Notes under the pieces: generated by a model
The model's input: the letters and a program-made list of their open reading frames with translations, nothing else
Told to the model about the DNA's origin: nothing
The model's database searches: none
Assembly: GCA_031459855.1 (NCBI GenBank)
Contig: JAVKHP010000001.1
Coordinates: forward strand, 2,890,309 to 2,954,308
Source of the DNA: Armatimonadota bacterium
GTDB taxonomy: Bacteria > Sysuimicrobiota > Sysuimicrobiia > Sysuimicrobiales > Humicultoraceae
DNA: 64,000 nucleotides
Reading direction: 5' to 3'
Shown: positions 8,881 through 48,032 of the stretch, piece by piece
Position numbering within the stretch: position 1 is the stretch's first letter
Layout of the letters: each line of letters begins with the position of its first letter
Made by a program: the position numbers and the translations under genes

Positions 8881-8978
8881 GTGCGATGAGGTGTACCGGC
8901 CTGCGCGCACGGTGCAACGCGGGTCACGGCGACCAGCGCGGGGACCCCGAGCGTCCCGCGACGCGTGCGGCAACGGAG

Positions 8979-33449: not shown

Positions 33450-34427
33450 TCATCGCGCCCGCACCAGCACGAACGCTGTCAGCGCCTCCAGGCTGGCCCG
33501 TGCGGGGCCAGGCGGCAGCGGCTGCAGGGCCGCCACGGCCCGGTCCGCGTACGTGCGCGCAACCTCCAGCGCCTGCCGGACGCCGTCGTAGCGGTGGACG
33601 AGCGCCTGGAGGTCGGCAAGCCCGCCGGCCTCCCCGCGCACCAGCGCCCGGAGACGGTCGCGGTCACCGGGGGGCGCCGCGCGCAGCGCGGCGATCACGG
33701 GGAGCGTCGTCTTCCCCGTGTCGATGTCGCTCCCGATGGGCTTCCCCATAGCCTGCGGGTCGCCCACCAGGTCCAGCGCGTCGTCGGTGATCTGGAAGCA
33801 CATCCCCCAGGCCAGGCCGAACGCCTCCAGCGCGTCGGCGACCGCGGGCCCGGCGCCGGCCACCAGCGCGCCTGCCCGGCAGGCCGCGGCGACCAGGCGT
33901 GCGGTCTTGCCCTCGATGATGCGGAAGTAGATGGCGTCGTCCTCGTAGGGCTCGCCCCCCACCTTGGTCGCCAGGATCTCCGCCTCGCTCATCGCCACCG
34001 CCGCCCGCGCGATCGTGGGCGCCACCTGCGGGTGCCGCATCCGGCTCACCAGGTCGAAGGCGGTGGCGAACAGGTAGTCGCCCAGCAGCACCGCCAGCTG
34101 GTTGCCCCACAGCACGTTGACGGTGGAGACGCCGCGGCGCAGGTCGGCGGCGTCGATGACGTCGTCGTGGATCAGCGAGGCGATGTGGATCAGCTCGACC
34201 GTGCCGGCCAGCCACAGGCGTTGCTCGTCGGCGCCGCCCGCCGCCGCGGCCGACAGCAGCGCCAGCGCCGGCCGGACCAGCTTCCCCCGCGCGGCCAGCA
34301 CGTGCGCGACCAGCTCGCCCACGAACGGGTCGTCGCTGCGCAGCTCACGGTGCAGCAGCTCGTACAGCCTCTCGAGGTCGTCGGCGACGGGCCGATAGAT
34401 CTCCTGCAGGTCGAGCGCCACGCTCAT
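33450..34427 (-). CDS. polyprenyl (all-trans) diphosphate synthase
   Basis: 325-residue IspA/HepT-like prenyltransferase. First Asp-rich motif ASLIHDDVIDAADLRRG, then GKLVRPALALL, EGKTARLVAAA, ITDDALDLVGD (second Asp-rich) and GKPIGSDIDTGKTTLPVI. The DDVID (DDxxD) motif with bulky flanks suggests medium or long chains such as the menaquinone or ubiquinone tail. The gene overlaps the cupredoxin stop, immediately downstream of the bc-type cluster, so it may make the quinone side chain used by that complex. Confidence 0.88.
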   Translation of the reverse strand: MSVALDLQEIYRPVADDLERLYELLHRELRSDDPFVGELVAHVLAARGKLVRPALALLSAAAAGGADEQRLWLAGTVELIHIASLIHDDVIDAADLRRGVSTVNVLWGNQLAVLLGDYLFATAFDLVSRMRHPQVAPTIARAAVAMSEAEILATKVGGEPYEDDAIYFRIIEGKTARLVAAACRAGALVAGAGPAVADALEAFGLAWGMCFQITDDALDLVGDPQAMGKPIGSDIDTGKTTLPVIAALRAAPPGDRDRLRALVRGEAGGLADLQALVHRYDGVRQALEVARTYADRAVAALQPLPPGPARASLEALTAFVLVRAR

Positions 34428-34792
34428 CGCGCCACCCGGATGGTCAGCGTCATGCCGGCCTCGCGGTGGCCGGGGATGCTGCAGTAGGCCACGTAGGTCC
34501 CCGGCTCGAGCTCGAACGCGACCGTCGCCTCCCCGCCGGGCGGCACACCCTCGATCTGGGCTCCGCGCACGCCGTCGACGACCAGGTTGTGCTCCACCAG
34601 CCCCTCGTTCTTGAGGCGCACCGCGATGCGTCCGGCCGCCACCGCCAGCGACGCGGGCGCAAACGCCCACTCGCGGGCCACCACGTCCACGACCGCCGGC
34701 GGCAGCGCTGGCGCGGCGCGCCGCACCCCGCACCCTGTCGCGACCAGCGCCACGACGGCAACCGCCACGACGCCAGGGAGTCCGGACCGCAC
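34424..34792 (-). CDS. cupredoxin-domain lipoprotein next to the bc-type cluster
   Basis: 122 residues, lipoprotein signal VAVAVVALVATGC, then a cupredoxin domain. Copper ligands: His in VEHNLVVDG and Cys-His-Met in AYCSIPGHREAGM. It is similar in plan to the protein at 27135-27548, but sits in the electron-transfer block, between the 34-residue membrane peptide and the prenyl synthase (ATGA overlap). A plausible high-potential electron acceptor for the Rieske branch, or part of a copper enzyme assembly. Confidence 0.84.
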   Translation of the reverse strand: MRSGLPGVVAVAVVALVATGCGVRRAAPALPPAVVDVVAREWAFAPASLAVAAGRIAVRLKNEGLVEHNLVVDGVRGAQIEGVPPGGEATVAFELEPGTYVAYCSIPGHREAGMTLTIRVAR

Positions 34793-34817
34793 AGACCGCC
34801 GCCGCGCCCCGAGGGGC

Positions 34818-34922
34818 TCAGGCTTCGGCGATGAGGCCGAACGAGGCCACGAACGCCAGCAGCAGGAAGAAGAACACGTAGAAGAGCAGGTACGCCAGCC
34901 AGACCCGCAGCGGGCGCTTCAT
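34818..34922 (-). CDS. 34-residue single-helix membrane peptide
   Basis: ATG 34922 overlaps the stop of the MvhD-like gene (ATGA) and the frame encodes 34 residues: a basic start MKRPLRVWL, then one aromatic-rich hydrophobic helix (LLFYVFFFLLLAFVASFG) and an acidic end. The tight overlap and clean membrane helix suggest a real small subunit of the adjoining membrane complex. No family recognised. Confidence 0.6.
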   Translation of the reverse strand: MKRPLRVWLAYLLFYVFFFLLLAFVASFGLIAEA

Positions 34923-35407
34923 GCCCCTCCCTCCTCCGCGGGCGCGCGCGCGGCCGCCGGACGTCGCGCCGGTCCCCCTGCGGCGGCGCCCGCGCCCAGC
35001 GCCTGCAGGCGCTCGACCATGGCTGCGACGTCGGCCAGGAACGCCTCGCGGTCGTGCAGCCCGTGGGCCAGCATCTGCAGGCGCTCGGCCGGCACCTTCC
35101 GCCGCGCCAGCCGCCGCTGCAGCTGGTCGATGCGCTCGCGCATCAGGTAGTTCCCTTCGCGGTTCAGGCAGTCCCCGTAGGGACACCCGACCACGAAGAC
35201 GCCGTCGGCGCCCGCCTTGAGGGCGTCTTCCAGCCAGCCCGGGCGGATGAACCCCGAGCACGGGATGCGGATGAGCACCACCGACGGATACGCCAGCAAC
35301 CGGCCGGCCCCATCGACCAGGTCGGCGGTCGCCACCGCCCAGTCGCACACGAAGCCCACGATCTTGGGCGCCGCGCCGCCGCGGACGGTCGCCGCCTGCG
35401 TGCTCAT
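34919..35407 (-). CDS. MvhD/FlpD-like iron-sulfur protein
   Basis: 162 residues. The N-terminal ~130 match the MvhD family (PF02662), the small [2Fe-2S] electron-transfer subunit of hydrogenase/heterodisulfide reductase complexes: IVGFVCDWAVATADL, VLIRIPCSGFIRPGWLEDAL, GADGVFVVGCPYGDCLNREGNY. In classical members the first motif has two cysteines (CxWC); here the second is Ala, leaving four Cys in all. The ATG overlaps the cytochrome b-ferredoxin stop (ATGA), so it is very likely a partner of the fused ferredoxin domain. The C-terminal 30 residues are Ala/Pro-rich. Confidence 0.82.
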   Translation of the reverse strand: MSTQAATVRGGAAPKIVGFVCDWAVATADLVDGAGRLLAYPSVVLIRIPCSGFIRPGWLEDALKAGADGVFVVGCPYGDCLNREGNYLMRERIDQLQRRLARRKVPAERLQMLAHGLHDREAFLADVAAMVERLQALGAGAAAGGPARRPAAARAPAEEGGA

Positions 35408-36579
35408 GCCCGCACCGCCTCCGCCACCGCCACCGCCTCCTGCACGCGGCGCGTCACGTCGGCCTCCAGCAGGCTCGGCAGCTCCAGGGCCTCGAAGGGG
35501 CATGCGCCGATGCAGATGCCGCACTCGACGCACCGCGAGTCGATCACCACCGCCAGCAGCTTCCGGCTGGCCGCCGCCCGCGACAGCCCGGGATGGGGCG
35601 AGGGCACCATCACGATGGCGTTGTACGGACAGTCGTAGTAGCACAGCTCGCAGCCCGTGCAGTTGCCGTCGATCACCTGCGCGACGCCCGCGTGCCGTAC
35701 CCCCATCTCCTGCGGGGCCTCGCGCCCCAGGTACGGGATCACGAATCCCGCGCCCAGGGTGACCGCCACCAGCGCCACCACCAGGCCGGGCGGGAGCAGG
35801 CCCGCCAGCCAGAACGGCAGCAGGAAGAAGACGTCCAGCGGCATCGCCTCGGGCCGGGTCCCGGGCTGCGCGGGCGCGCCGCTGACCGCCGGGATCACCG
35901 CGGCGAGCAGGGTCACCAGCCCCAGGCTGACCAGCACCCAGGTGGCGGGCGGCCACACCTTGGGGTGCCGCAGGCGCACGTAGTGCCACCACAGCAGCAC
36001 GTAGAGCAACGACGCCGGGCCCACGTGCAGCAGCAGGATGCGGGGCAGCGTGCCCTCCGACAGCCCGCGACCGCCCAGCAGCAGACTGGCCAGCCAGTCG
36101 CCCACCGCCGGGATGGCCCGCAGCATGTCGTCGAACAGCCCCAGCACCGCCAGGGCCCGCTCGTCCCACACCAGGATGTACCCGGTGGCGCCCACGAACC
36201 CGCCGAAGATCAACAGGAACATGCCCGAGATCCACGGGGAGTCGCGCGAGAACAGGTACCGGTCGGTGAACCAGTTGCGGAACAGGTGCAGCAGGGCCGC
36301 CACGATGAAGGCGTCGGCCGCGTACCGGTGGATGCCCCGGATCAGCCCGCCGTAGGGGACCTGCTCGGTGAGGTAGGCCACCGAGGGGTGGGCGCCGGTC
36401 AGGCTCGGCACGTAGTAGAAGAAGATGAAGATGCCCGAGAGGACCAGGATGAACAGGAACAGGTTGGCGAGCCCGCCCGTGTAGTAGAGCGGGTTCCAGT
36501 CCGACGGGTAGACGCGGTTGATGGCCACGTCCAGCCGGAGGGTGAAGCGTTGGAGGGCGGTCAGGGCTTTCCGGTACAC
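35404..36579 (-). CDS. cytochrome b fused to a 2x[4Fe-4S] ferredoxin domain
   Basis: 391 residues. Residues 1-210 form a cytochrome b core with all four heme ligands: HRYAADAFIVAALLH (first pair, 14 apart) and HVGPASLLYVLLWWH (second pair, 14 apart). Two or three further helices follow, with PLDVFFLLPFW at the position of the Qo PEWY motif. Residues ~300-391 are a bacterial ferredoxin domain: CTGCELCYYDCPYNAI and CVECGICIGACPFEAL, two complete 4Fe-4S sites, presumably on the cytoplasmic side. The fusion is rare and, with MvhD next, suggests a low-potential electron path. Confidence 0.88.
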   Translation of the reverse strand: MYRKALTALQRFTLRLDVAINRVYPSDWNPLYYTGGLANLFLFILVLSGIFIFFYYVPSLTGAHPSVAYLTEQVPYGGLIRGIHRYAADAFIVAALLHLFRNWFTDRYLFSRDSPWISGMFLLIFGGFVGATGYILVWDERALAVLGLFDDMLRAIPAVGDWLASLLLGGRGLSEGTLPRILLLHVGPASLLYVLLWWHYVRLRHPKVWPPATWVLVSLGLVTLLAAVIPAVSGAPAQPGTRPEAMPLDVFFLLPFWLAGLLPPGLVVALVAVTLGAGFVIPYLGREAPQEMGVRHAGVAQVIDGNCTGCELCYYDCPYNAIVMVPSPHPGLSRAAASRKLLAVVIDSRCVECGICIGACPFEALELPSLLEADVTRRVQEAVAVAEAVRA

Positions 36580-36589
36580 AGTGGCCCCC

Positions 36590-36856
36590 TTACGGCACGG
36601 GCTTGACCCAGCGCCCGCGCAGGTCGTCTTCCGCCTCGGCGCGCCGCGGCCCGATCGTCCCCAGCTTGCGCAGCAGCAGCAGGATCAGCCCGTAGACGAC
36701 GAAGAGCACGCCCAACGCGGCCCCGCCCAGCTGCCAGAACACCCGACGGTCGGGGCTGCCCATGGCCTCGCCGAGCACGATCAGGATCGCGCACGCCACG
36801 CCGATGGCGGCGAGGCCGACGATCCCCGTGGCGTACCTGCGGTGCTCCTCGGTCAC
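36590..36856 (-). CDS. 88-residue two-helix membrane protein in the bc-type cluster
   Basis: Two hydrophobic helices (GIVGLAAIGVACAILIVLGE and LGGAALGVLFVVYGLILLLLRKLG), then a charged tail with RRAEAEDDLRGRW. The ATG overlaps the stop of the 93-residue gene upstream; it ends 10 bases before the cytochrome b-ferredoxin gene. Likely an accessory subunit of the complex. No known family recognised. Confidence 0.65.
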   Translation of the reverse strand: MTEEHRRYATGIVGLAAIGVACAILIVLGEAMGSPDRRVFWQLGGAALGVLFVVYGLILLLLRKLGTIGPRRAEAEDDLRGRWVKPVP

Positions 36857-37134
36857 GATACGTCAGCTCCTCCCGACGGGCGGCCCGCCCGGCGGTCCAG
36901 CCACCGGTCGAACAGCGGCATGGGCCGCCGGGTGCGTCCCGCCGCCCGGTCGGCGGCGTAGATGACGAACGCCAGGTAGCCCAAACTGATCCAGAAGGCG
37001 GCCATCCAGGCCAGCGCCGCCCCGGGCCCGTAGAGCCGGTGCCCCTCGAGCGCCGCCCGCACGCCCTGCCACAGGCGTGAGAAGCTCTCCACCGCCACGG
37101 CGAACGCCACCACCGACCCCAGCAGCCGGCCCAC
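36853..37134 (-). CDS. 93-residue membrane protein in the bc-type cluster
   Basis: GTG 37134 lies 5 bases after the cytochrome b stop. One or two hydrophobic helices (VGRLLGSVVAFAVAVESFSRL and AALAWMAAFWISLGYLAFVIYAADRA), basic C-terminus. It overlaps the 88-residue gene by ATGA. A probable small subunit; homologues unknown to me. The frame is supported by tight spacing on both sides. Confidence 0.6.
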   Translation of the reverse strand: MGRLLGSVVAFAVAVESFSRLWQGVRAALEGHRLYGPGAALAWMAAFWISLGYLAFVIYAADRAAGRTRRPMPLFDRWLDRRAGRPSGGADVS

Positions 37135-37139
37135 GGCCC

Positions 37140-38306
37140 CTAGTGCGCCGCCGCGCGCGCGGGCGCCGGCGGCGCCGCCTGCGCCTGGGCTGCGGCGCGC
37201 GCCTGCCGCCGCCGGTAGCGGATCTCCCAGACGAAGGCCAGGGAGAGCACGACGGTGGTGACGAGCAGCACCAGCGGCGGCTCGCGCTCGATCACGGCGA
37301 TGTTGAACAGGATGAGCGCTGTGAAGACCAGGAAGTAGATCAGGGCCAGCAGCCCCACGACGAAGAAGAACGGGCGCTCCAGGGGCCGCCGGCCCTTGCT
37401 GCGGTCGAGGAACGGTACCAGCATGCCGAAGCCAATGAGCAGGCCCGGGCCCAGCCCGGCCCACAGCGGCGGCGTGTACTTCACGTACTGGTAGAGCGCC
37501 AGGAAGTACCAGTCGGAGAGGATCGGCAGGGGCGTCCGGTTCGGGTCGGCGCGGCGGCCCAGCTCCGCGGGCAGCGCCCACGAGATGTACACCAGCATGG
37601 CCGAGAACACCAGGATGGGGAAGAGCGACATGTTCAGGCGCTGACGCCGCGTGCGGTAGTAGAAGACCTCGATGACGATGAGCAGCACCAGCGAGATGCC
37701 GAAGTGCAGGGCGTAGAAGCGCGTCAGGGTGGCGGCGCCGATGGCCGGCCCGCCCAGGAACAGGTAGGCGATCATGGAGCCGAGGTTGAACCGCTCGCCG
37801 ATGACCGGGATCTTGGCGGTGAGCTCGTCGAAGTACACCGGCACCGTGAGCACCGTCTTGGCCGCCCAGAACGCCCGCTGGTTCCAGATGAGCAGGTAGC
37901 CGGTGATCCCCGAGATCATGGCCAGGACCAACCCGGCGAACCCCCACATCCAGCTCAGCTCGCCGGGGCGCTTGTACTCCCCCAGGAAGTACATGCGGTA
38001 GATGCGCAGGATGATGCAGAGGATCACGCCGTCGGCCGCGTACTTGTGCACGCCGCGGATCAGCCATCCCAGCGGCACCGCGTGCTGGATGTGCAGGATG
38101 GAGTTGTACGCGCCCTCGGGGGTGGGCTCGTACCAGAACATGAGCAGGATCCCGCTGACCACCGTAACGAGCCAGAAGTAGTAGAGCATCGGCCCCAGCA
38201 GGTAGAAGGGGTTGGCCTGCCGGGTGACCAGCGTCTCGTCGAACAGGTCCAGCCGGCTGCGACGGTCCCGGTACCACTCACGCAGGTTGTCCCAGACCCT
38301 GGCCAT
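37140..38306 (-). CDS. cytochrome b of bc-type complex lacking heme bH ligands
   Basis: 388 residues with both b6-like and subunit IV-like parts: WLIRGVHKYAADGVILCIILRIYRMY, GELSWMWGFAGLVLAMISGITGYLLIWNQ, TLTRFYALHFGISLVLL, and SDWYFLALYQYVKY at the Qo (PEWY) site. The first His of each helix (bL heme pair) is present, in GVHKY and YALHF. The second of each pair is gone: where cytochrome b6 has ILHVFR this has ILRIYR, and the helix D position is Tyr or Phe (EVFYYR). So only heme bL can be bound in the normal way. It follows the Rieske gene by 30 bases. Confidence 0.92.
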   Translation of the reverse strand: MARVWDNLREWYRDRRSRLDLFDETLVTRQANPFYLLGPMLYYFWLVTVVSGILLMFWYEPTPEGAYNSILHIQHAVPLGWLIRGVHKYAADGVILCIILRIYRMYFLGEYKRPGELSWMWGFAGLVLAMISGITGYLLIWNQRAFWAAKTVLTVPVYFDELTAKIPVIGERFNLGSMIAYLFLGGPAIGAATLTRFYALHFGISLVLLIVIEVFYYRTRRQRLNMSLFPILVFSAMLVYISWALPAELGRRADPNRTPLPILSDWYFLALYQYVKYTPPLWAGLGPGLLIGFGMLVPFLDRSKGRRPLERPFFFVVGLLALIYFLVFTALILFNIAVIEREPPLVLLVTTVVLSLAFVWEIRYRRRQARAAAQAQAAPPAPARAAAH

Positions 38307-38336
38307 CGGTCCTCGTCACGGTGGTGCGGATTGAGG

Positions 38337-38999
38337 CTACGCGATCCCGCCCGGCTCGACGCGCCGCACCAGCACCCGGTCGCCTTCGATGGTGTAGAAG
38401 AACGTGCGCGGCGGCCGCGGGGCCGGGCCGGAGAGCACCCGGCCCGGCATCTCGGGGTCGGCCGGGTCGTAGATGCTGAGGTGGCACGGGCAGCCCATGA
38501 GCGCGTGCTGGCGCTCCCTGGGCGGCACGTAGCCGCCGTAGCCGGCGGTGATCTCGCGCCAGTCCTGCACGAAGTTGTAGATGCAGCCCAGGTGCGGGCA
38601 GATCCGCGAGAACACGATGATCTCGCTCTCGGTGAACTGCGGCGTCTCACCCGTGGCGCGCACCCAGTCCCACGGCATGCGGATCTTGGCCGGCAGGCGG
38701 ATCGCCACGCCGGGGACCGAGGCGCTGCGGAACCCCTCGGGCGTGTACTGGGGGTACTTCTGAGTGTAGACGAAGTACTTGAAGTCCCAGGGCTTCTGCA
38801 ACTCGGCCAGGGTGGCCGCCACGACCGGCTCGCCGGCCGGCGGGTCGTGCCTGGTGGGCTGCAGCACGTCGAAGGGGTCCACGTTGGGCTTGAGGAACCG
38901 CAGCAGCGGCGAGGCGAACGCCACGAGCCCCGCTGCCAGCGGCAGGGACGCCGCGGCGCGCAGGAAGCGCCGACGATCCATGGCACGGTCGTGCGCCAT
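38337..38999 (-). CDS. Rieske [2Fe-2S] protein of the bc-type complex
   Basis: The cluster motifs CPHLGC and CPCHLSIYD (two Cys, two His) are intact. A twin-arginine leader (DRRRFLRAAASLPLAAGLVAF) shows Tat export and membrane anchoring; TatA and TatC are encoded at 25386-26381. ATG 38999 gives 220 residues; 39026 and 38981 are alternative starts. The stretch between about residues 40 and 110 (PTRHDPPAGEPV...KIRMPWDWVRATGE) is longer than in classical Rieske proteins. The gene heads the Rieske-cytochrome b unit. Confidence 0.92.
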   Translation of the reverse strand: MAHDRAMDRRRFLRAAASLPLAAGLVAFASPLLRFLKPNVDPFDVLQPTRHDPPAGEPVVAATLAELQKPWDFKYFVYTQKYPQYTPEGFRSASVPGVAIRLPAKIRMPWDWVRATGETPQFTESEIIVFSRICPHLGCIYNFVQDWREITAGYGGYVPPRERQHALMGCPCHLSIYDPADPEMPGRVLSGPAPRPPRTFFYTIEGDRVLVRRVEPGGIA

Positions 39000-39077
39000 C
39001 AGCAGGTCACCGTCTCCAGCATACACAGCCGCCGTCCAGCCCGGGAAGTGGGATGGCGGCCGGACCCGCCGCGGGCC

Positions 39078-40001
39078 TCACGGCTGCTGTCCGCGCGGCG
39101 GTGCGTACTCGTACATGAACGTCCGCACGTAGTCCACCAGCGCCCAGATCTCGTCCTCCTCCAGCCGGCCCCGGTACCCGGGCATCAGGCCGCGCCCGTC
39201 GGCGATCCGCTGGAAGAGCTCGGTGGGCTTGCGGGCCGCCAGGAAGTTGGCGTCGGTGAAGATCCCGGCGCCGACCCCTTCGCGCCAGCCCCACACCCGC
39301 GCCGCCATCTCCTCGGACAGCCGGCCACCGCGCCCGTCCCCGGCGGGACCGTGGCAGTCGGCGCAGGTGGCGGTGCGGCCCCCGCCGATCTCCAGCGCCC
39401 GCGTCTGGTAGATCTCGCGGCCGCGCGCGATCGCCTGCGGCGTGGTGGAGAACGTCCAGGCGTAGAAGAGCACGTCCCAGATCTGCTCGTCGGTGAGGGT
39501 CGCCGGCCCCTTGTTGGCCCCGTAGGCCGGTTTCCGCCCGAAGGCCGGCATGGCCGTGTGGGGCCTGCCGAGCTTGATCGTCTCGAAGAGCACCCACGGG
39601 GCGTTCAGGCGCATGGCGATCTGGTTGTGGAAGTTGGCGGGCCGGGACGGGATCTTCTCACCGCGAATCTGGATGCCCCACAGCGCGAAGAAGTCGGTGA
39701 GCGGGTTCTTGTGCGGCGAGGTGAGGCCGGCGGCCGCAGGCCCGTCGCCAAACCCCTCGTCTCCGTGGCAGACGGCGCAGACGCGCTCGAAGGTGGCCCG
39801 CCCGCGCGCGGCCGACGGCTTGAACGCCGGCTTGCCCTCCACCAGCGGCCGCAGCACCGGCTGCTGCCCCAAGCCAGCACCGACCGTCGCCGCCTCGCCG
39901 CGTACGCGCACGGTGGGCTGGCATCCGGCAGCGACCACGGCGACGGCGACGATCGCGGGGAGCACGCGCAGCGCGGTCGTCAGCGAGCGAACAGGTGTCA
40001 T
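39078..40001 (-). CDS. di-heme cytochrome c lipoprotein
   Basis: About 307 residues from ATG 40001 (an ATG at 40025 is possible). Lipoprotein signal VLPAIVAVAVVAAGC. Two heme sites: ERVCAVCHGDEGFGDGP with Met ligand candidate in TAMPAFGRK, and TCADCHGPAGDGRGG with GLMPGYRG. The C-terminal VDYVRTFMYEYAPP closes the second domain. Located between the ccm genes and the Rieske gene, it is the probable electron acceptor or c-subunit of the complex, matured by CcmABCDEF. Confidence 0.9.
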   Translation of the reverse strand: MTPVRSLTTALRVLPAIVAVAVVAAGCQPTVRVRGEAATVGAGLGQQPVLRPLVEGKPAFKPSAARGRATFERVCAVCHGDEGFGDGPAAAGLTSPHKNPLTDFFALWGIQIRGEKIPSRPANFHNQIAMRLNAPWVLFETIKLGRPHTAMPAFGRKPAYGANKGPATLTDEQIWDVLFYAWTFSTTPQAIARGREIYQTRALEIGGGRTATCADCHGPAGDGRGGRLSEEMAARVWGWREGVGAGIFTDANFLAARKPTELFQRIADGRGLMPGYRGRLEEDEIWALVDYVRTFMYEYAPPRGQQP

Positions 40002-40076: not shown

Positions 40077-41120
40077 TCAGGTCTGCCGCCGTAACGCCCA
40101 CGTCAGGCCCACCAGGAGCACGCCCGCCAGCGCCGCCGCCGCTGCAGGCGCGGGCCATCGCCGCAGCGGCGGCACGCCCACCACGCGCAACGCGAGGTCG
40201 CCCGGGGGCACCGCCCTGGCCCAGGCCCGCGTGTACCGGCCACCATCCATGTCGACGTCGGGTGCCGGCCGGAACTGCGGCGAGCGCACCTCGGCCGGGG
40301 CGGTGACGAACACCACTGCCCGATCGACCGGCAGCCGCACCCGGCGATCCAGGGACACCGTGCCGGCGCCCGCCACCGCGTAGCTGAACGACAGCTGGTG
40401 AGCGCCCGGGCGCACGACGAGTCGGTCCCGGATCTCGCCGGATGCGGTGCGCGGCCGGTCGAAGCCGGCATGATACGCGACGTACCGGGCCGTCGGCGGC
40501 AGGGGCACGGCGACGTCGCCCAGGAACGTACGGGTGGTGGCGTTGCGCAGGTGCACCACCTCCGAGACCCGCACGTAGCCGGCGTGCACCTCGACCGCCA
40601 CCCCAAGCAACGCCACGCGCAGCGGCACGTCGGGCGCCGCGTCGTACACCGTGAGGGCCACGTGGACCGGACCACCGGCCACGACCGCGTGGACCGCGTA
40701 CGGTACTCCCTGATGGTTTGCCTGGATCAGGTAGCGGCCGTCGGGCAGCCCGCGAAACGCGAAGCGGCCGGCGGCGTCGGTGCGCGCGTCGGACGTGGGC
40801 TGAGCCCCCGTGCTGCCGATGGACACCAGGGTGACTTCCTGCCCGGCGGCCGGCCGGCCGCTCGTGCCGTTGCGCACGATCCCGGTGACCGCCCCGGCGC
40901 CGCCATCGACCGCGGACGACGTCGCGAGCACGGTCCCACGCACCGTCGCCGGCCAGACCGGCCCGGTCCAGACCGCGAGTATCATCCCGACCGCAGCGAT
41001 CGCCGTGGCCGCGGCGCGCGCCGGCTGCGACGGCCGCCACCTGGACCTGTGTGCGCGCCCCGGCGCCGCGGGCGCACCGGTCTCGCATGCCTGGCGGACC
41101 CACGGTCGGGCGCCTGTCAC
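40077..41120 (-). CDS. membrane-anchored protein with carboxypeptidase-regulatory-like domain
   Basis: 347 residues from GTG 41120, overlapping the previous stop. An N-terminal helix (ATAIAAVGMILAVWTG) acts as signal or anchor. Then a CarboxypepD_reg-like beta domain: GAVTGIVRNGTSGRPAAGQEVTLVSIG and RFAFRGLPDGRYLIQANHQG. Further beta-rich sequence (FLGDVAVPLPPTARYV...) and a C-terminal helix (AAAAALAGVLLVGLTWALRR) follow. Function is unknown; its place between ccmF and the cytochrome c gene suggests a role in cytochrome assembly or the complex's outer part. Confidence 0.65.
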   Translation of the reverse strand: MTGARPWVRQACETGAPAAPGRAHRSRWRPSQPARAAATAIAAVGMILAVWTGPVWPATVRGTVLATSSAVDGGAGAVTGIVRNGTSGRPAAGQEVTLVSIGSTGAQPTSDARTDAAGRFAFRGLPDGRYLIQANHQGVPYAVHAVVAGGPVHVALTVYDAAPDVPLRVALLGVAVEVHAGYVRVSEVVHLRNATTRTFLGDVAVPLPPTARYVAYHAGFDRPRTASGEIRDRLVVRPGAHQLSFSYAVAGAGTVSLDRRVRLPVDRAVVFVTAPAEVRSPQFRPAPDVDMDGGRYTRAWARAVPPGDLALRVVGVPPLRRWPAPAAAAALAGVLLVGLTWALRRQT

Positions 41121-41401
41121 GGTACGGCCTCCTCGCGCCGCGACGCCCCGTCCAGCTGCCGCAGCCGTGCGCCGTCCTCCTCCAGCGCCGCGGGCGGCGC
41201 GAGGTCGTCGGCATCGCTCGACGTGACGGGCCGGTCGAGCTCGCGCTCGGCGAGGGCGCGCAGCGTGGGCGCGTCGGCCTGGCCGGCGCGCGCGTCGTCG
41301 ACTGCCCGCGTCCTGCGGCGCGCAACGGGCGCCAGGAGGTACCACGCGAGCGCTGCGGCCACCAGGAACACGAGCGCGTCGGGCAGGCCGATGCCGCTCA
41401 C
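41117..41401 (-). CDS. 94-residue CcmI-like/cytochrome c biogenesis-associated protein
   Basis: GTG 41401 overlaps the ccmF stop (GTGA). One N-terminal membrane helix (DALVFLVAAALAWYLLAPVARR), then a hydrophilic tail including LRALAERELDRPVTSSDADDL. A short membrane protein after ccmF is often CcmI or CcmH related, but I see no CxxC motif or TPR domain, so this is only a positional guess. Confidence 0.5.
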   Translation of the reverse strand: MSGIGLPDALVFLVAAALAWYLLAPVARRRTRAVDDARAGQADAPTLRALAERELDRPVTSSDADDLAPPAALEEDGARLRQLDGASRREEAVP

Positions 41402-43389
41402 GGCGCCCCTACCGCGGGCGATGGGGCCGGCTCGCCCACCGGGAGCACGCGCGCCTGCCGGCGCCGCTCTGGCAGCGCCGCCAGCAGCGCGCCGGCGGCC
41501 AGCACCGCCCCGCCGGCCCACAGCCACGATACCAGCGGGTGGATCAGCACCCGCAGCGTGGCCCGACCGTCCGGCGTCCAGTCGGCCAGGATCGCGTAGA
41601 GATCCTCGCGCGGCGAGGACCTGATCGCCACCTCGTGCATCGGCTGCTCCTGCGCCCGGTAGAACAGCCGGCGGGGACGCAGGACGCCCAGGTCCCGGGC
41701 GCCCCGCCACACCCGCACCTCCGCTTCCACCACGTCGATCCCAGGGCGCTGCGCGCCAGCCAGCCCCCGAAACTCGAAGAGATATGCACCGAGCTGAAAC
41801 CGTTCGCCGGGAGCCACCGTGGCCTGTTGCTGCGTGGCGAAGGCGCTGCTGCCCGCGATGCCCGCCAGCATGAGCACGACGCCGAGGTGGGCAGCGTAGC
41901 CGCCGTACCGACGGCGGTTGTGCCAGAGCAGCTGCCCCAGCGCGGTGAGCACAGGCTCGCCGCGGGCGGCACGTACCCGCACGCCGCGGACGAGCTCCAG
42001 CCCGATCGTCGCCAGGACGAACAGCGCCAGGACGAAGACCCCCAGCGCCACCGGGGCCCGGACGCCCGCCGCGGCGAGGATCCCGCCGCCGGCGGCGGCG
42101 ACGGCCGCCGGCCAGGCGAAGGTCCGCACCAGCTGTTCACGGGAGGCGCGTCGCCAGGGCAGGAGCGGCCCGATGGCCATGAGCAGCAGCAGGGCCAGCG
42201 CGATGGGCGTCAGCACGCGGTTGAAGTACGGTGGGCCCACCGTACTCCGCACGCCCTCCAGGGCTTCCGTCACGGCCGGGAAGACCGTGCCCACGAAGAC
42301 CACGGCGGTCGCGGCCACCAGCAGCAGGTTGTTGGCCAGGAAGGCCGTCTCGCGGCTGAGCACGGCCTCGATGGTCGCCGGGCGGCGCAGCTGATCCCAC
42401 CGCCAGGCCAGCAGGCCGAAGCCGGCCAGCAGGACCACCGCCAGGAAGCCCAGGAACGCGGGGCCGACGGCCGACAGCGCGAACGCGTGCACCGACGCGA
42501 TCACGCCGCTGCGCACCAGGAACGTGCCAAACAGCGTCAACGCGAAGGCCAGGATGACCAGCGCGACGTTCCACGTGGCCAGCAGCCCGCGCCGCTCCTG
42601 CACCTGGATCGAGTGGAGGAACGCCGTGGCCACCAGCCACGGCATGAGCGCCGCGTTCTCCACCGGATCCCATGCCCAGTAGCCGCCCCAGCCCAGCACC
42701 ACGTACGACCACTTGGCGCCAAACAGCAGCCCCAGCGAGAGGAAGATCCAGCCCACCAGCACCCAGCGGCGCGCCAGCACCACCCACGTGTCGTCCAGAC
42801 GGCCGGTGACCAGCGCGGCGACCACGATGGCGAACGGCACGGTCATGCCCACGAACCCCAGGTAGAGCGTCGGGGGGTGCGCGGCCATCCACGGGTTGCG
42901 CAACAGCGGGTTCAGCCCCTGCCCGTCGGGCGGCGGGGGCACCAGGCGCGCGAACGGGTCGCTGGCCCACGCCAGCATCCCCGAGAAGAACAGCGCCACG
43001 GCCAGGAGCACCACGGTCGCCGGCGCTTGCAGCGCCGGATGCGCGCGCAGCGCGCGCACGCCGGCCACCAGGTAGCCGGCCAGCACGAGGGCCCACAGCA
43101 GGAGGGCACCGTCGTGGCCGCCCCAGAACGCGGTGATCGTGTAGAACAGCGGCTGGGTCGACTCGCTGGCCACCGCGACGAACCGCACCGAGAAGTCACG
43201 CTGCACGAGCGCCGTCCACAGGGCTGCCGCGGCCAGCGCCACGAGCAGCGCCCACGCCACCGCCGCGCGGCGCCCGGCTTCCAGCAGCCCCTCGTGCCGC
43301 CGCCGGATGCCCAGGACGGTGACGAGGATGCCGTAGGCCGCGGTGACCACAGCGGCCAGCACGGCGAACCGGCCGATCTCACCCGCCAC
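41398..43389 (-). CDS. ccmF: cytochrome c heme lyase subunit CcmF
   Basis: 663 residues with some 14 membrane helices. The heme-handling WWD domain is GWGGYWAWDPVENAALMPWL, with flanking His (HPPTLYLGFVGM, TAFLHSIQVQERRG), and the C-terminal periplasmic loop lies before the last helix (HPLVSWLWAGGAVLAAGAL). GTG 43389 overlaps the small upstream gene by 11 bases. Together with ccmABCDE it forms system I maturation; ccmG and ccmH are not in the window. Confidence 0.95.
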   Translation of the reverse strand: MAGEIGRFAVLAAVVTAAYGILVTVLGIRRRHEGLLEAGRRAAVAWALLVALAAAALWTALVQRDFSVRFVAVASESTQPLFYTITAFWGGHDGALLLWALVLAGYLVAGVRALRAHPALQAPATVVLLAVALFFSGMLAWASDPFARLVPPPPDGQGLNPLLRNPWMAAHPPTLYLGFVGMTVPFAIVVAALVTGRLDDTWVVLARRWVLVGWIFLSLGLLFGAKWSYVVLGWGGYWAWDPVENAALMPWLVATAFLHSIQVQERRGLLATWNVALVILAFALTLFGTFLVRSGVIASVHAFALSAVGPAFLGFLAVVLLAGFGLLAWRWDQLRRPATIEAVLSRETAFLANNLLLVAATAVVFVGTVFPAVTEALEGVRSTVGPPYFNRVLTPIALALLLLMAIGPLLPWRRASREQLVRTFAWPAAVAAAGGGILAAAGVRAPVALGVFVLALFVLATIGLELVRGVRVRAARGEPVLTALGQLLWHNRRRYGGYAAHLGVVLMLAGIAGSSAFATQQQATVAPGERFQLGAYLFEFRGLAGAQRPGIDVVEAEVRVWRGARDLGVLRPRRLFYRAQEQPMHEVAIRSSPREDLYAILADWTPDGRATLRVLIHPLVSWLWAGGAVLAAGALLAALPERRRQARVLPVGEPAPSPAVGAP

Positions 43390-43531
43390 GTCCGCTCCAC
43401 CCTGCTCCCGAACGCCCGCGCGATGCCAGGGCGTGGTCGAGGCGCTCCAGTTCACCGACCAGTCGCCAGAGCGCGATGCCCACGACGAGCCAGCCAACCC
43501 CCAACAGCAGTACGAGGCTCACCGCGCTCAC
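43379..43531 (-). CDS. 50-residue single-helix protein between ccmE and ccmF
   Basis: GTG 43531, one membrane helix (SLVLLLGVGWLVVGIALWRL) followed by a charged helix (VGELERLDHALASR). Its end overlaps ccmF by 11 bases, supporting translation. It resembles CcmD in layout, yet a better CcmD lies at 44074-44235. No family recognised. Confidence 0.5.
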   Translation of the reverse strand: MSAVSLVLLLGVGWLVVGIALWRLVGELERLDHALASRGRSGAGWSGRGG

Positions 43532-43678
43532 GAGCGCTCTCTGGCCCCCCGCGCGTCCTGCGGCGTGCTCTCGATGCGGGCACGCGCGCGCTGTCCGCCG
43601 GGTGCACACCATCGCCTGCTGCCGCGCACCGGCCGTGACCCGCTGACCCCCGATGGCGCGTGCCGTCCGGCCATCGCC

Positions 43679-44077
43679 CTAGCGCTCCGGGTACCGCTCC
43701 CTGTACTCGGTCGGGTGCGTCGAGATCACCTGCGTCGCCTGGAAGATCCGCCCCTCGACCAGACGCCCTTCGACGAGCACCTGCCGGCCCTCGGCGAACA
43801 GGTCCGGGAGCACCCCGGCAAAGGTCACGCGGTAGGCGGTGGTGCCATCGGTCAGCGTGAACTGGACCTGCCCCGCGCTCCTGGCCACGGATCCCGGCTG
43901 CACGGTCCCGGCCAGCCGCACCCGCGCCCGGTGGAGGTCGGGACGGCCGGCGAACTCACCGGGCGTCAGGTAGTACACGGTGGCCGAGCGCACCCCCTGG
44001 TAGGCAGCCAGGGCCAGCGCGGCCACGACCAGCGCTCCGGCGACCGCGAGTTTCCGCCTGGGACTCATGGGGATCAC
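43679..44077 (-). CDS. ccmE: periplasmic heme chaperone CcmE
   Basis: 132 residues; GTG 44077 overlaps the ccmD stop (GTGA). N-terminal anchor RRKLAVAGALVVAALALAAYQG, then an OB-fold domain: VYYLTPGEFAG, RVRLAGTVQPGSV, VTFAGVLPDLFAEGRQVLVEGRL. The heme-binding element appears as ISTHPTEYRERYPE, with the His-xxx-Tyr spacing of the classical HDENY. It receives heme from CcmC and passes it to CcmF. Confidence 0.92.
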   Translation of the reverse strand: MIPMSPRRKLAVAGALVVAALALAAYQGVRSATVYYLTPGEFAGRPDLHRARVRLAGTVQPGSVARSAGQVQFTLTDGTTAYRVTFAGVLPDLFAEGRQVLVEGRLVEGRIFQATQVISTHPTEYRERYPER

Positions 44078-44235
44078 CGCTCGCGTGCGTCGCGGAGCAC
44101 CGGCACGCCCTCGTTGGCTGACGGACGCGACGCGTCGACCAGTTCACGCACGAGGCGCTGCCGGGCGAACAGCGTCAGCACGTAGCAGCCCACCCCGACG
44201 ACCACCGCCAGGTAGGCCAGCACCACGAAGATCAT
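44074..44235 (-). CDS. ccmD: CcmD-like heme exporter protein
   Basis: A 53-residue frame from ATG 44235. One membrane helix near the start (MIFVVLAYLAVVVGVGCYVL), then a basic stretch TLFARQRLVRELVDASR and a hydrophilic tail. The layout and position between ccmC and ccmE are those of CcmD, which helps release holo-CcmE from the ABC exporter. It overlaps ccmE by GTGA. Confidence 0.72.
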   Translation of the reverse strand: MIFVVLAYLAVVVGVGCYVLTLFARQRLVRELVDASRPSANEGVPVLRDARER

Positions 44236-44380
44236 CCGCGGCCTCCCGGCGCCGGCACGCCGCGCACCGCCGCGCTGCCCACCGGCGGTTGTGGCCTCTG
44301 CAGCGCCAGCATCCTGCCGACGCCCGGCGCTCCCCGGGGCGACCCTGTCGTCGCGGCTGCCACCACGGGCTCCTCCCCCA

Positions 44381-45040
44381 TCACCCTGCGGACTCCAGGG
44401 CCTCGACGGCGGCCGCCAGCGCCCGCTCCTGCCGGACCCGCACGCGCAGCAGCGCCGCCGCCAGCACGAGGAAGGCCACGGTGTTGGCCACGAGCGGCGC
44501 CAGCATGCTCGCAGGCAGCGCTGGCCCCTCGGGACGGAACACGGTGGCCTGGGGATGGAGCGTGCGCAGCCAGACCACCGACCAGTGGATGAGCGGCACG
44601 TCCAGCAGCCCCACGATGCCGAGCACGGCGGCGGCCCGCGCGCCGCGCTCGCCCGGCGCCCACGCCCGCAGCGCCAGGTAGCCGACGTAGACGAACCAGA
44701 GGACGAGCGTGGTCGTCAGGCGCGCGTCCCACGTCCACCACACCCCCCACACCGGTCGGCCCCACAGCGCGCCCGTCACCAACGTCAGCGTGATGAACAG
44801 CACGGCGAGTTCCGCGGCCGCCAGGGCCAGCCGGTCCCAGGCGGGGTCGCGCCGACGCAGGAAGAGGCCGCTGGCCAGCCCCACCACGCCCAGGGCCAGG
44901 TAGGCGACGAGCACGCTGGGCACGTGCACGTACATGATGCGCTGCGGAACACCCTGGATCGCTTCCTCGGGCGCCAGCAGGAGCGCCGAGGCCGCGCCCA
45001 CCAGGACCAGTGCCACGCCGAGGGTCAGCAGCAGCCGCAC
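44381..45040 (-). CDS. ccmC: heme exporter protein CcmC
   Basis: 219 residues from GTG 45040, with GGGAG seven bases before. Six membrane helices; the WWD domain is PVWGVWWTWDARLTTTLVLW, with the two His ligands in RIMYVHVPSVLVAY and DVPLIHWSVVWLRTLHP. It attaches heme to CcmE. It follows ccmB by 28 bases. Confidence 0.94.
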   Translation of the reverse strand: MRLLLTLGVALVLVGAASALLLAPEEAIQGVPQRIMYVHVPSVLVAYLALGVVGLASGLFLRRRDPAWDRLALAAAELAVLFITLTLVTGALWGRPVWGVWWTWDARLTTTLVLWFVYVGYLALRAWAPGERGARAAAVLGIVGLLDVPLIHWSVVWLRTLHPQATVFRPEGPALPASMLAPLVANTVAFLVLAAALLRVRVRQERALAAAVEALESAG

Positions 45041-45068
45041 ACGCGCGCTCCCGGCTGGACGGGCACGG

Positions 45069-45716
45069 TCATTCCTCGACGAGGTGATCGAACAACAGCA
45101 CGCTGGCTGCGCCAACGAGCATAGCAAAGGCCCCCAGCACCTGCAATTGCGGTGCCACCGCCGCCAGCGGCGCGCCCTCGAGGAGCTCCGCCGTCGCCGC
45201 GGTGGCGGCCGCAAGCACCGGCACGGCCACGGGCAGCAGCAACACCGGCAGCAGCGCCTCGCGCACCCGGGCCAGCGTCACCAGCCCGCCGAACAGCGCG
45301 CCCGCCGCGGCCAGCCCGGCGCCGCCTGTGACCAGCACCGGCGCCAGCCGCCACGCGTGCCGCCCCACCGCCTCGCTGGAGAGCACGGCGAACGCCGGCA
45401 CCGACACCACCTGCACCACCGTGAGCGCGGCCCAGCTGGCGAGAGCCTTGGCCAGCACCACGACGCCGGCGTCCACCGGCGCCAGGCGCAGGGCCAGCAG
45501 CTGATCCCGCTCCACCGCGAACAGGCGCGCAAAACCCAGCGCGGCGGCAAACGTGTACGTCACCCACATGGCTGCGGCCGCCGCCCGCGGCGCGCTCCCC
45601 AGCCCGGACAGCACCACCACCAGCAGCAACGCCAGCAGGGCCATGGCCCCGGTGAGCTCGCGCGTCCGCCACTCCACGCGCAGGTCCTTCGCCACGAGCA
45701 GCCAGAGCTCTCTCAC
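45069..45716 (-). CDS. ccmB: heme exporter permease CcmB
   Basis: 215 residues from GTG 45716, whose GTGA overlaps the ccmA stop. Six helices. The N-terminus VAKDLRVEWRTRELTGAMALLAL is the CcmB signature, followed by AAAAMWVTYTFAAALGFARLFAVERD. ABC transporter permease paired with CcmA. Confidence 0.92.
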   Translation of the reverse strand: MRELWLLVAKDLRVEWRTRELTGAMALLALLLVVVLSGLGSAPRAAAAAMWVTYTFAAALGFARLFAVERDQLLALRLAPVDAGVVVLAKALASWAALTVVQVVSVPAFAVLSSEAVGRHAWRLAPVLVTGGAGLAAAGALFGGLVTLARVREALLPVLLLPVAVPVLAAATAATAELLEGAPLAAVAPQLQVLGAFAMLVGAASVLLFDHLVEE

Positions 45717-46420
45717 GCCAGCGCCTCCCGGAACCACGCCGCGAGCGCGGCGTCGTCCAGTGCCGCCGCGGGCTCGACCACCGCCACCCGGCCTCCCCGC
45801 AGCACCGCCGCCCGGTCGGCCAGGGCGCGCGCCTGCGCGGGATCGTGGGTGGCGAAGATCACCGTGCGGCTCGCGCCGATCGCGCGCAGCGTCGCCGCCA
45901 GGCGCGCCGCCGCCTCCAGGTCGAGGCCGGTGAACGGCTCGTCCAGCAGCAACAGCACCGGATCGTGCAGCAGCGCCCGCGCCAGGTCCACCTGCTGGCG
46001 CTGTCCGCGGGAGAGCACGCGGGCCCGCCGCGTGCGCAGGGCACCCAGGCCCAACGCCTCCAGCACCTCGGCCGCCCGCGCCGACGGCAGCCCGTAGAGC
46101 CCCGCGAAGAAGCGCAGGTTCTCTTCCACGGTGAGGCCATCGTAGAGGAGCGACTCGTGCGGGACCAGCGCGAGCCGCCGCCGCACGCTGGCCGCGGGCG
46201 CGTCCGGGTCCCCGAACCAGACGACCGTGCCGCGGGTGGGCCGCAGCACCGATGCGAGGATGCGCAGCAGGGTGGACTTGCCCGCGCCGTTGGCGCCCAG
46301 CACCGCCACCGTCTCGCCGGTCCGCACGCGCAGGTCCACCCCGCGCAGGACGGGGCGGTGGTCGAACGCCCTGGCCACGCCTGCGGCCTCCACCGCGTAG
46401 GCCGGGCCGTGCGCCCTCAC
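45713..46420 (-). CDS. ccmA: heme exporter ATP-binding protein CcmA
   Basis: 235-residue ABC ATPase: Walker [17 protein letters not shown], signature VLSRGQRQQVDLARALLHDP, Walker B LLLLDEPFTGLD, H-loop FATHDP. Starts at GTG 46420, 7 bases after the BshC-like gene. Energises CcmBC release of CcmE. Its identity as CcmA is set by context, since ccmBCDEF follow. Confidence 0.93.
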   Translation of the reverse strand: MRAHGPAYAVEAAGVARAFDHRPVLRGVDLRVRTGETVAVLGANGAGKSTLLRILASVLRPTRGTVVWFGDPDAPAASVRRRLALVPHESLLYDGLTVEENLRFFAGLYGLPSARAAEVLEALGLGALRTRRARVLSRGQRQQVDLARALLHDPVLLLLDEPFTGLDLEAAARLAATLRAIGASRTVIFATHDPAQARALADRAAVLRGGRVAVVEPAAALDDAALAAWFREALA

Positions 46421-46427
46421 ACGCGCC

Positions 46428-48032
46428 TCAGCCGCGGGTGGGGCCGGCGGCGTCGGTCTCCAGCAGGTCCACCAGGCGTTCCACGGCCTCCACGGGGAAG
46501 AGCACGAACGGGTAGGTCCGCGCCGTGGTGACCTCCGCATCCCGGGCGAGACGGTCGAGCCGCCGCAGCGCGTCCTGCACGGCGGCCACGCGGTCGGCCA
46601 CCTGCACCTGCAGGATCGTGTTGATCTCGCGGATGCGCGCCGTGGCCTGCCGCCGCTCGCGCCGTGTGCGTGCCTCGCCACGGTCCAGCCGACGGATCAG
46701 CGCCCACTTCTCCTCCACCAACGCGCGGTGCGGCCCGTCGTGCGCGGGGAGGAAGCGGTCGGGGTTGTGCCGCAGGTCGAGCAGCAGCCGGTGCAACCTG
46801 CGCCGCTCGTCGGCCGCCTGCCCGGCGTCGGCGAACGGCAACCAGAGCGTGGCGGTCACCGTCGCGTACGGCGGGGGCGCGATGCCGAAGAAGGCGCGCG
46901 CGATCGCGTCGGTGGCCCGGTCGTAGCGCCCGCCCCCCAGCCCGTGGACGAACAGATCCGCCACGCCCAGCCGCACGAAGGCGGTGAGCGTCATCGCGCG
47001 GGGCCGGATGGGCAGCGCGGCGAACGCCGCGTCGTCGGGGTCGTCGGGGATCCGGCCGACCGGGACGTCGCCCGCCAGCAGGCGGCCCGTGGCCACCTCC
47101 ACCAGCAGCGGCCGGCGCCGGCCCTCCTGCACGATCCAGAACGGCGTCTCGACCCTGCGGTCGTCGACCAGCAGGTCGGGAAACGGCTGCGCCGTCGTCC
47201 GCACCCCGTAGTGCTCGCGATACGCGGCCAGCTGCGCGTTGTGCACCTGTGCGAAGCGCCGCGCCTCGCGCACGATGGCCCAGCAGAACCGGCGGAAGGC
47301 CCCGGTCCGGTGCAGATGGGACACGGGCAGGTCGACGTAGGGCCGCGGGCCTTCCAGCGTGCGGCGTGCCCAGGTCACCGCACCGGCCAGCCCGCCGCTC
47401 GCTGGCGGCGGCGGGAGCGCCCGCGCCCGCTCCCAGCCGGCCAGCACCTCGGGCGCGTCGAGCGTCCGCACCCGGTCATCGATCTCGGCCAGGAAGGCGC
47501 GCCAGGCGTCCGGCGACGGCGCCGGCATCGCCTCGACCGGGACGTCGGGGTCTGCCCGGGCGAGCACCACCTGGGTGCGCACCAGTCGCCCGTCGGCCAT
47601 CGCGGGCACGTCGGCGGCGACCACCTCGAGCGCGTCGGTGTCCACGACGCAGTGGAGGCCTACCCTGCCGGGGGGGACGAGCCGGCTCATGGCGAGCACC
47701 TTGATCCAGATGCCGGGGTGCACGAACACCGGCTGGTGCCCGGTGGCCAGGAGCAGGTCGGCCTCGGTCGCCGCGTCCGGGGAGCCGGCAGACGCCACCG
47801 CAACGCCCAGGCTGCGCGTGTAGGCCCACGCCAGGGCCAGCGTCTCGGCCCGGGCCTGCCGCCGCCACGCGTGCAGGGCCACCTCCCCGATGGGCACGGT
47901 CGCCGCGGCCAGCCGGTCGCGCGCGTCGCGGGCGAGGGCGAGCCACGCGCGAAACGGCGGTGCGGCCACCGCCGCCGGCGAGGTCGCCGGGATCTCCAGG
48001 TCGAGCGCCGGCCAGGACGCGGAGGTCGCCAT
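46428..48032 (-). CDS. BshC-like protein of uncertain function
   Basis: 534 residues, close to the ~540 of BshC, the last enzyme of bacillithiol synthesis. The motif LLATGHQPVFVHPGIWIK with a following GLHCVVDTDALEV recalls BshC's TGQQ...GPLY...K and its acidic E-D-H-D segment, but with clear differences. The C-terminal part is helical (coiled-coil type: ARIREINTILQVQVADRVAAVQDALRRLDR) and a conserved-looking HGLGGGRYDRATDAIARAFFG comes before it. Directly downstream of a BshB1-like deacetylase (ATGA overlap). It could be a divergent BshC or an unrelated conserved protein. Confidence 0.5.
   Translation of the reverse strand: MATSASWPALDLEIPATSPAAVAAPPFRAWLALARDARDRLAAATVPIGEVALHAWRRQARAETLALAWAYTRSLGVAVASAGSPDAATEADLLLATGHQPVFVHPGIWIKVLAMSRLVPPGRVGLHCVVDTDALEVVAADVPAMADGRLVRTQVVLARADPDVPVEAMPAPSPDAWRAFLAEIDDRVRTLDAPEVLAGWERARALPPPPASGGLAGAVTWARRTLEGPRPYVDLPVSHLHRTGAFRRFCWAIVREARRFAQVHNAQLAAYREHYGVRTTAQPFPDLLVDDRRVETPFWIVQEGRRRPLLVEVATGRLLAGDVPVGRIPDDPDDAAFAALPIRPRAMTLTAFVRLGVADLFVHGLGGGRYDRATDAIARAFFGIAPPPYATVTATLWLPFADAGQAADERRRLHRLLLDLRHNPDRFLPAHDGPHRALVEEKWALIRRLDRGEARTRRERRQATARIREINTILQVQVADRVAAVQDALRRLDRLARDAEVTTARTYPFVLFPVEAVERLVDLLETDAAGPTRG

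Follow-up and report, generated by a model that had tools for sequence, protein, structure and literature searches.

A 64,000-nucleotide stretch of the genome of an Armatimonadota bacterium (assembly GCA_031459855.1, contig JAVKHP010000001.1, positions 2,890,309 to 2,954,308; below, the window) harbors a minus-strand operon that encodes a Rieske protein, two different cytochromes b and a cytosolic iron-sulfur tail. The usual view of complex III is that of a closed homodimer that returns its low-potential electrons to quinone only. Here, the order of transcription is diheme cytochrome c lipoprotein, Rieske protein, first cytochrome b (cytb1), two small membrane proteins (smA and smB), second cytochrome b with a ferredoxin (Fd) domain (cytb2), MvhD and a 34-aa transmembrane (TM) peptide, followed by cupredoxin and polyprenyl diphosphate synthase genes. 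All parts named in the initial annotation, i.e., Rieske protein, diheme c lipoprotein, cupredoxin, both cytochromes b, ferredoxin domain and MvhD, were recovered as minus-strand reading frames with family matches. The two cytochromes b appear to have taken on different roles and to have gained an iron-sulfur port on the cytosolic side, akin to electron-transfer modules of the methanogen type, and we tentatively favor an asymmetric Rieske/cytochrome b equivalent of complex III in which the Fd-MvhD tail would mainly serve as an electron inlet.

The operon resembles cytochrome b6f and bc1 complexes in that a Rieske protein with CxHxGC...CPCH motifs (CPHLGC and CPCHLSIYD; the second-sphere Ser and Tyr are kept) accompanies a cytochrome b fold, a P-side quinol motif and a c-type acceptor. 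It differs from them in the lack of a recognizable cytochrome f or c1, and in its cytochromes b. Canonical complexes are homodimers of a single cytochrome b that binds hemes bL and bH through two histidine pairs, and by convention the first histidine in each helix serves bL and the second bH. In contrast, this operon contains two cytochrome b genes whose products share 30% identity, and only cytb2 has both pairs. In helix B of cytb1, H87 is the first histidine and the second position is occupied by arginine (lysine or methionine in some orthologs), whereas helix D has H201 and no second histidine. Alignment shows that the bL ligands are kept and both bH ligands are lost in every cytb1 ortholog examined, a count that leaves out rows whose contig offered only a cytb2 copy. 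The PEWY-type P-side quinol motif SDWYFLALYQ is invariant among cytb1 orthologs. The cytb2 sequences all retain H84, H98, H185 and H199, and their PEWY region is degenerate (PLDVFFLLP). The ligand register of both proteins was checked by alignment to solved cytochrome b6, which both profiles match best, and an AlphaFold2 (AF2) model of cytb1 has a full cytochrome b fold (pLDDT 73) with bc1 cytochrome b as best PDB matches. Heme ci as a substitute for bH was rejected, as the conserved N-terminal Cys that binds it covalently in b6f and low-G+C bc complexes was not found.

At the level of sequence, the loss of bH from cytb1 implies that the two proteins would act as an asymmetric pair and that the low-potential electron of cytb1 would have to cross to cytb2. 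In engineered bc1 heterodimers with a knockout of bH ligands, electrons are known to pass from one bL heme of the dimer to the other; those are laboratory constructs, whereas the asymmetry here would be natural. The initial annotation had the low-potential electron leave through iron-sulfur clusters instead of heme bH. This agrees with the Rieske-linked cytb1, which lacks bH ligands, but not with cytb2: because cytb2 keeps both ligand pairs, the clusters do not replace bH, which stays in the path.

The ferredoxin domain of cytb2 carries two CxxCxxCxxxC sites. All eight cysteines are invariant in a nine-sequence alignment, one is missing from one sequence of a metagenome-assembled genome (MAG) in a larger cytb2 set, and together with four cysteines of MvhD they are nearly invariant across phyla. 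In solved structures, the domain matches the C-terminal ferredoxin domain of HdrA (5odc_A 558-646), and MvhD, which has the PF02662 domain and the four conserved cysteines of the MvhD/FlpD family, matches Mvh subunit D (5odc_D). Moreover, the ferredoxin part and MvhD align with consecutive stretches of the NCBIfam model of HdrA2 (NF040770, 571-644 and 638-773). Judging from these matches, the tail of this cytochrome b is an Fd-MvhD wire of the HdrA2 type. In contrast to HdrABC-MvhAGD, the operon has no flavin part of HdrA, no HdrB/HdrC and no hydrogenase, and the tail is carried by a membrane cytochrome b. The Fd-MvhD tail of characterised Hdr systems takes electrons from a hydrogenase or dehydrogenase, and by analogy this receiving role favors, although it does not prove, an inlet in the complex described here.

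Further support for the tail as part of the complex comes from natural fusions. Single chains of cytb2, ferredoxin and MvhD with an extra C-terminal region are encoded in an Aquificota MAG (L066, 646 aa, 8001-9941) and a Myxococcales MAG (L067, 703 aa, 95-2206), and a plasmid of the alphaproteobacterium Defluviimonas encodes the same fusion without the extra region (L076:11971-13551). Such fusions demonstrate that cytb2, ferredoxin and MvhD form one functional unit. In the AF2 model of the Aquificota fusion, the cytochrome b match extends over ~290 residues (pLDDT 74). Among sampled Myxococcota genomes, 30 of 237 match the cytb2-ferredoxin profile at E<=1e-50. In the inspected Myxococcota regions (L091-L098, L100-L102), the fusion adjoins genes for a COX1-like protein and SCO. 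Where contigs permit, genes for a CuA subunit and a second COX1-like protein are also nearby, in many cases joined by one for heme o synthase; no Rieske or cytb1 gene was found in the flanks of these regions. The Aquificota fusion lies between oxidase-type genes (a COX1-like set) and a nos gene cluster. Overall, the stand-alone fusions of L066, L067, L076 and these Myxococcota regions adjoin a heme-copper oxidase/NO-reductase-like operon with no Rieske gene nearby. The region behind MvhD in L066 is modelled by AF2 as one TM helix followed by a mainly beta domain, and its Defluviimonas counterpart is a separate gene without a Pfam family (L076:13548-14066).

Conservation was analyzed in 43 genomes of the phylum CSP1-3/Sysuimicrobiota, including the source genome (G000; 3.19 Mb, 97.7% complete). 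MAGs labelled Armatimonadetes or ANGP1 are close relatives, and from these labels the group was taken to be CSP1-3/Sysuimicrobiota. The core of the complex is present in 37 of the 43 genomes, and full-length or nearly full-length relatives of cytb2-ferredoxin with 59-82% identity occur in 36 of the 42 other than the source. Phylum loci with enough flank repeat the order cyc-Rieske-cytb1-(smA-smB)-cytb2Fd-mvhD, in most cases with the genes of the small TM peptide and the prenyl synthase behind it. Melainabacteria/Caenarcaniphilales have the same gene order with main subunits 35-44% identical, and no sufficiently long locus of either group departs from Rieske-cytb1-cytb2Fd-mvhD. Because this order persists at such identity, the grouping is not due to chance; together with the fusions, the synteny supports the initial proposal that MvhD and the ferredoxin belong to one complex-forming unit. 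PF02662 occurs in exactly one copy, on the operon contig, in 31 of the 43 genomes, and the operon MvhD is the sole PF02662 protein of the source genome. As this genome also lacks HdrA (see below), we rejected the possibility that its MvhD is a piece of a hydrogenase or Hdr complex encoded elsewhere.

In Melainabacteria, whenever a locus has enough flank, genes of a cbb3-type oxidase (CcoN, and CcoO with cytochrome c domains) are found immediately upstream of the operon, and cbb3-type or other COX1-family genes are found beside the complex in one family of the phylum (f5) as well. In five Melainabacteria loci (L062:11294-13439, L055, L056, L060 and L063), the operon is followed closely by aprAB-like genes that are read from the other strand (AprA NF005331, 800.7 bits vs. 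a cut-off of 557). This arrangement suggested AprAB as a general partner of MvhD, which we rejected as no CSP1-3 genome has AprA above the cut-off.

The distribution of the complex in the phylum follows that of heme-copper oxidases. COX1 was found in 38 genomes, 36 of which carry the complex; the other two (G003 and G018) have no full match to it and are incomplete assemblies (89% and 85%). The four genomes of genus g7 (G007-G010) have neither COX1 nor the complex and instead harbor HdrA and three MvhD-type matches, which looks like a switch to an anaerobic Hdr-based metabolism. The co-occurrence of COX1 and the complex (Fisher p = 6e-4) largely reflects one evolutionary event. HdrA-like proteins, defined by an NF040770 match at E<=1e-60, are encoded in 12 of the 43 genomes. 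A search for such subunits, suggested in the initial annotation, gave no match at this threshold in the source genome, despite its near-completeness, nor in 30 of the 37 carriers of the complex. An HdrABC set is not apparent in the source genome either, where the CCG matches listed fall in open reading frames of 253, 488 and 668 aa, unlike HdrABC. The originally proposed electron flow from quinol to an Hdr-linked low-potential acceptor has so far gained no support, as HdrA is missing here and the complex tracks heme-copper oxidases instead.

In the source genome, cytb1 and cytb2 are the only cytochromes b of this type that we found. Alternative complex III was rejected, since the two NrfD genes of this genome lie 47 kb apart and several carriers of the complex have none. 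The classical menaquinone route is indicated by MenD; MqnA/D of the futalosine pathway were not found in the source genome. With a sole cytochrome b complex, no adjacent NrfD pair and MenD present, the complex is the best candidate for the menaquinol:cytochrome c step of this organism.

According to the scheme that we tentatively favor, menaquinol would be oxidized by cytb1 at its P-side site. Of the two electrons, one would pass through the Rieske protein to the diheme cytochrome c or cupredoxin and on to a heme-copper oxidase, while the other would travel from bL of cytb1 to bL of cytb2 and on to its bH, which faces the cytosol. Next to this bH, a port would be formed by two [4Fe-4S] clusters together with the [2Fe-2S] center of MvhD. 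A soluble dehydrogenase might hand low-potential electrons to MvhD, and these, together with the electron on bH, would reduce menaquinone at an N-side site of cytb2. Ferredoxin-driven cyclic electron flow, which is thought to run through the b6f complex, offers a parallel for such an inlet. Several points weigh against this scheme. The donor to MvhD is hypothetical, and the inlet is argued by analogy; the association with oxidases depends mainly on one genus; the confidence of the AF2 models is only moderate (pLDDT 73-74); cytb1 and cytb2 could possibly form separate homodimers; and the Rieske Ser/Tyr pair and menaquinone would suit an outlet as well.

Such an outlet is the main rival, and we regard it as rather unlikely. 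Here, quinol-based bifurcation would be driven by electron flow to oxygen in the high-potential branch, and the bL/bH electron would run along the ferredoxin clusters and MvhD until it reduces ferredoxin, NAD(P)+ or a soluble enzyme as low-potential acceptor. A cytb1 without bH cannot run a normal Q-cycle inside a single monomer, MenD indicates menaquinone, and the Ser/Tyr pair is associated with a high Rieske potential, all of which would fit an outlet. So would the likeness to anammox complexes with Rieske potentials of +303 and +335 mV and a heme bP estimated by the authors to be as low as -475 mV, for which NAD(P)+ reduction was proposed (PMC12954380). The boldest form of this idea, a heterodimeric complex III that forces each low-potential electron from cytb1 via cytb2 into the Fd-MvhD wire, so that aerobic menaquinol oxidation makes a cytosolic low-potential reductant without a flavin, seems unlikely. 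Several findings speak against an outlet: no FAD/NAD(P) oxidoreductase or other flavin- or nucleotide-binding subunit is encoded in 33450-40001, most carriers lack HdrA as described above, and the cytb2-Fd-MvhD module occurs without Rieske/cytb1 in the inspected flanks, where bifurcation at Qo could not work. Electron movement from the P to the N side would also oppose the membrane potential, making ~-400 mV marginal: by textbook values, menaquinol electrons average ~-80 mV and the membrane contributes ~150 mV, so that a -400 mV acceptor would need a high-potential electron near +390 mV. For these reasons we prefer an inlet over an outlet with modest confidence.

Two further explanations dispense with net flow through the port or with a joint complex. 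That a cytb1/cytb2 heterodimer runs a normal Q-cycle with the tail as a regulatory device or redox sensor without net electron flow strikes us as improbable. Plain complex III activity would account for the co-occurrence with oxidases, and cytb2, which retains the ligands of bL and bH and a cytochrome b fold along the length modelled in the Aquificota fusion, has enough for an N-side quinone site; however, the near-invariance of all twelve tail cysteines and a fusion that aligns the wire with the hemes suggest electron transfer. We consider it very improbable that the operon encodes two complexes, one in which Rieske and cytb1 act as a menaquinol:cytochrome c reductase and another in which cytb2-Fd-MvhD works on its own as a quinone reductase, like the stand-alone fusions. 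Those fusions, with no Rieske/cytb1 in the inspected flanks, would fit this view, but a cytb1 lacking bH would leave its low-potential electron no onward path, and, contigs permitting, no locus of the phylum or of Melainabacteria has either the cytb1 or the cytb2 gene without the other.

Among the closest described counterparts are Kuste4569-4574 and Kustd1480-1485 of Kuenenia stuttgartiensis, which combine Rieske/cytochrome b with iron-sulfur proteins on the negative side and were suggested to draw the low-potential electron away from the Q-cycle (PMC12954380). The operon shares this combination; in contrast to it, the anammox complexes were modelled as homodimers and have multiheme cytochromes c and an FAD/NAD(P) oxidoreductase, whereas here there are two cytochromes b, an Fd-MvhD tail and no flavin subunit. 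Complex III of some aerobic Melainabacteria was annotated as cytochrome b6f parts in 2019 (PMC6349859), and the terms complex III, cytochrome b and Rieske do not appear in the main text of the 2024 Sysuimicrobiota paper. We found no description of such a complex in the openly accessible literature; reviews in subscription journals were outside this scope, so its absence is not proven. As the sole recognizable complex III of the source genome, near-universal in its phylum and common to non-photosynthetic relatives of Cyanobacteria (Melainabacteria), the complex suggests that complex III may gain or lose electrons by a route missing from textbook versions. Two questions become testable: whether crossing between the bL hemes is obligatory, and whether Rieske/cytochrome b complexes exchange electrons with cytosolic low-potential carriers.

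Features of the operon and its downstream genes (window coordinates)
Feature	Position	Strand	Characteristics
Diheme cytochrome c lipoprotein, two CxxCH	39078..40001	-	Lipobox AGC; CAVCH and CADCH; PF13442/PF00034; position conserved
Rieske [2Fe-2S] protein	38337..38999	-	Twin-arginine/TM anchor; TIGR01416, E 1.3e-10
Cytochrome b1 (cytb1)	37140..38306	-	Full-length cytochrome b fold; H87/H201 present, R101/F215 at bH positions; Qo motif PILSDWYFLALYQ
smA, small single-TM protein	36853..37134	-	No family match; recognizable at many orthologous loci
smB, small two-TM protein	36590..36856	-	No family match
Cytochrome b2 (cytb2) with ferredoxin domain	35404..36579	-	H84/H98, H185/H199; 4-Cys sites C307-317, C350-360
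MvhD/FlpD [2Fe-2S] protein	34919..35407	-	PF02662, 99.6 bits vs. cut-off 22.3; C21, C50, C75, C80
34-aa single-TM peptide	34818..34922	-	Start overlaps mvhD stop; conserved in phylum, detectable in some Melainabacteria
Cupredoxin lipoprotein	34424..34792	-	Accessory; missing from some orthologous operons
Polyprenyl diphosphate synthase	33450..34427	-	Downstream gene conserved in phylum; not a complex subunit

The diheme cytochrome c lipoprotein is likely the electron acceptor of the Rieske protein, and the cupredoxin is likely a periplasmic electron carrier. Nine genes are indeed adjacent, as initially annotated, although 34818-40001, the range given for them, holds eight and the cupredoxin gene lies just outside. 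To call them mostly overlapping was an overstatement: four of the nine junctions in the table overlap by ~4 bases (smA/smB, cytb2/mvhD, mvhD/TM peptide and cupredoxin/synthase), and the others are spaced by 5-78 bases.

The polyprenyl diphosphate synthase gene overlaps the cupredoxin gene and comes after the operon in most loci of the phylum, and it may tie quinone side-chain synthesis to the complex. Upstream of the operon on the same strand (window 41398-46681) lie ccmF and ccmE-, ccmC-, ccmB- and ccmA-like cytochrome c maturation genes, and ccmF is similarly placed in several other phylum loci. The gap separating the operon from the ccm genes holds a further minus-strand gene (window 40077-41345), whose product has a carboxypeptidase-regulatory-like beta domain and, at one terminus, a TM-like segment.

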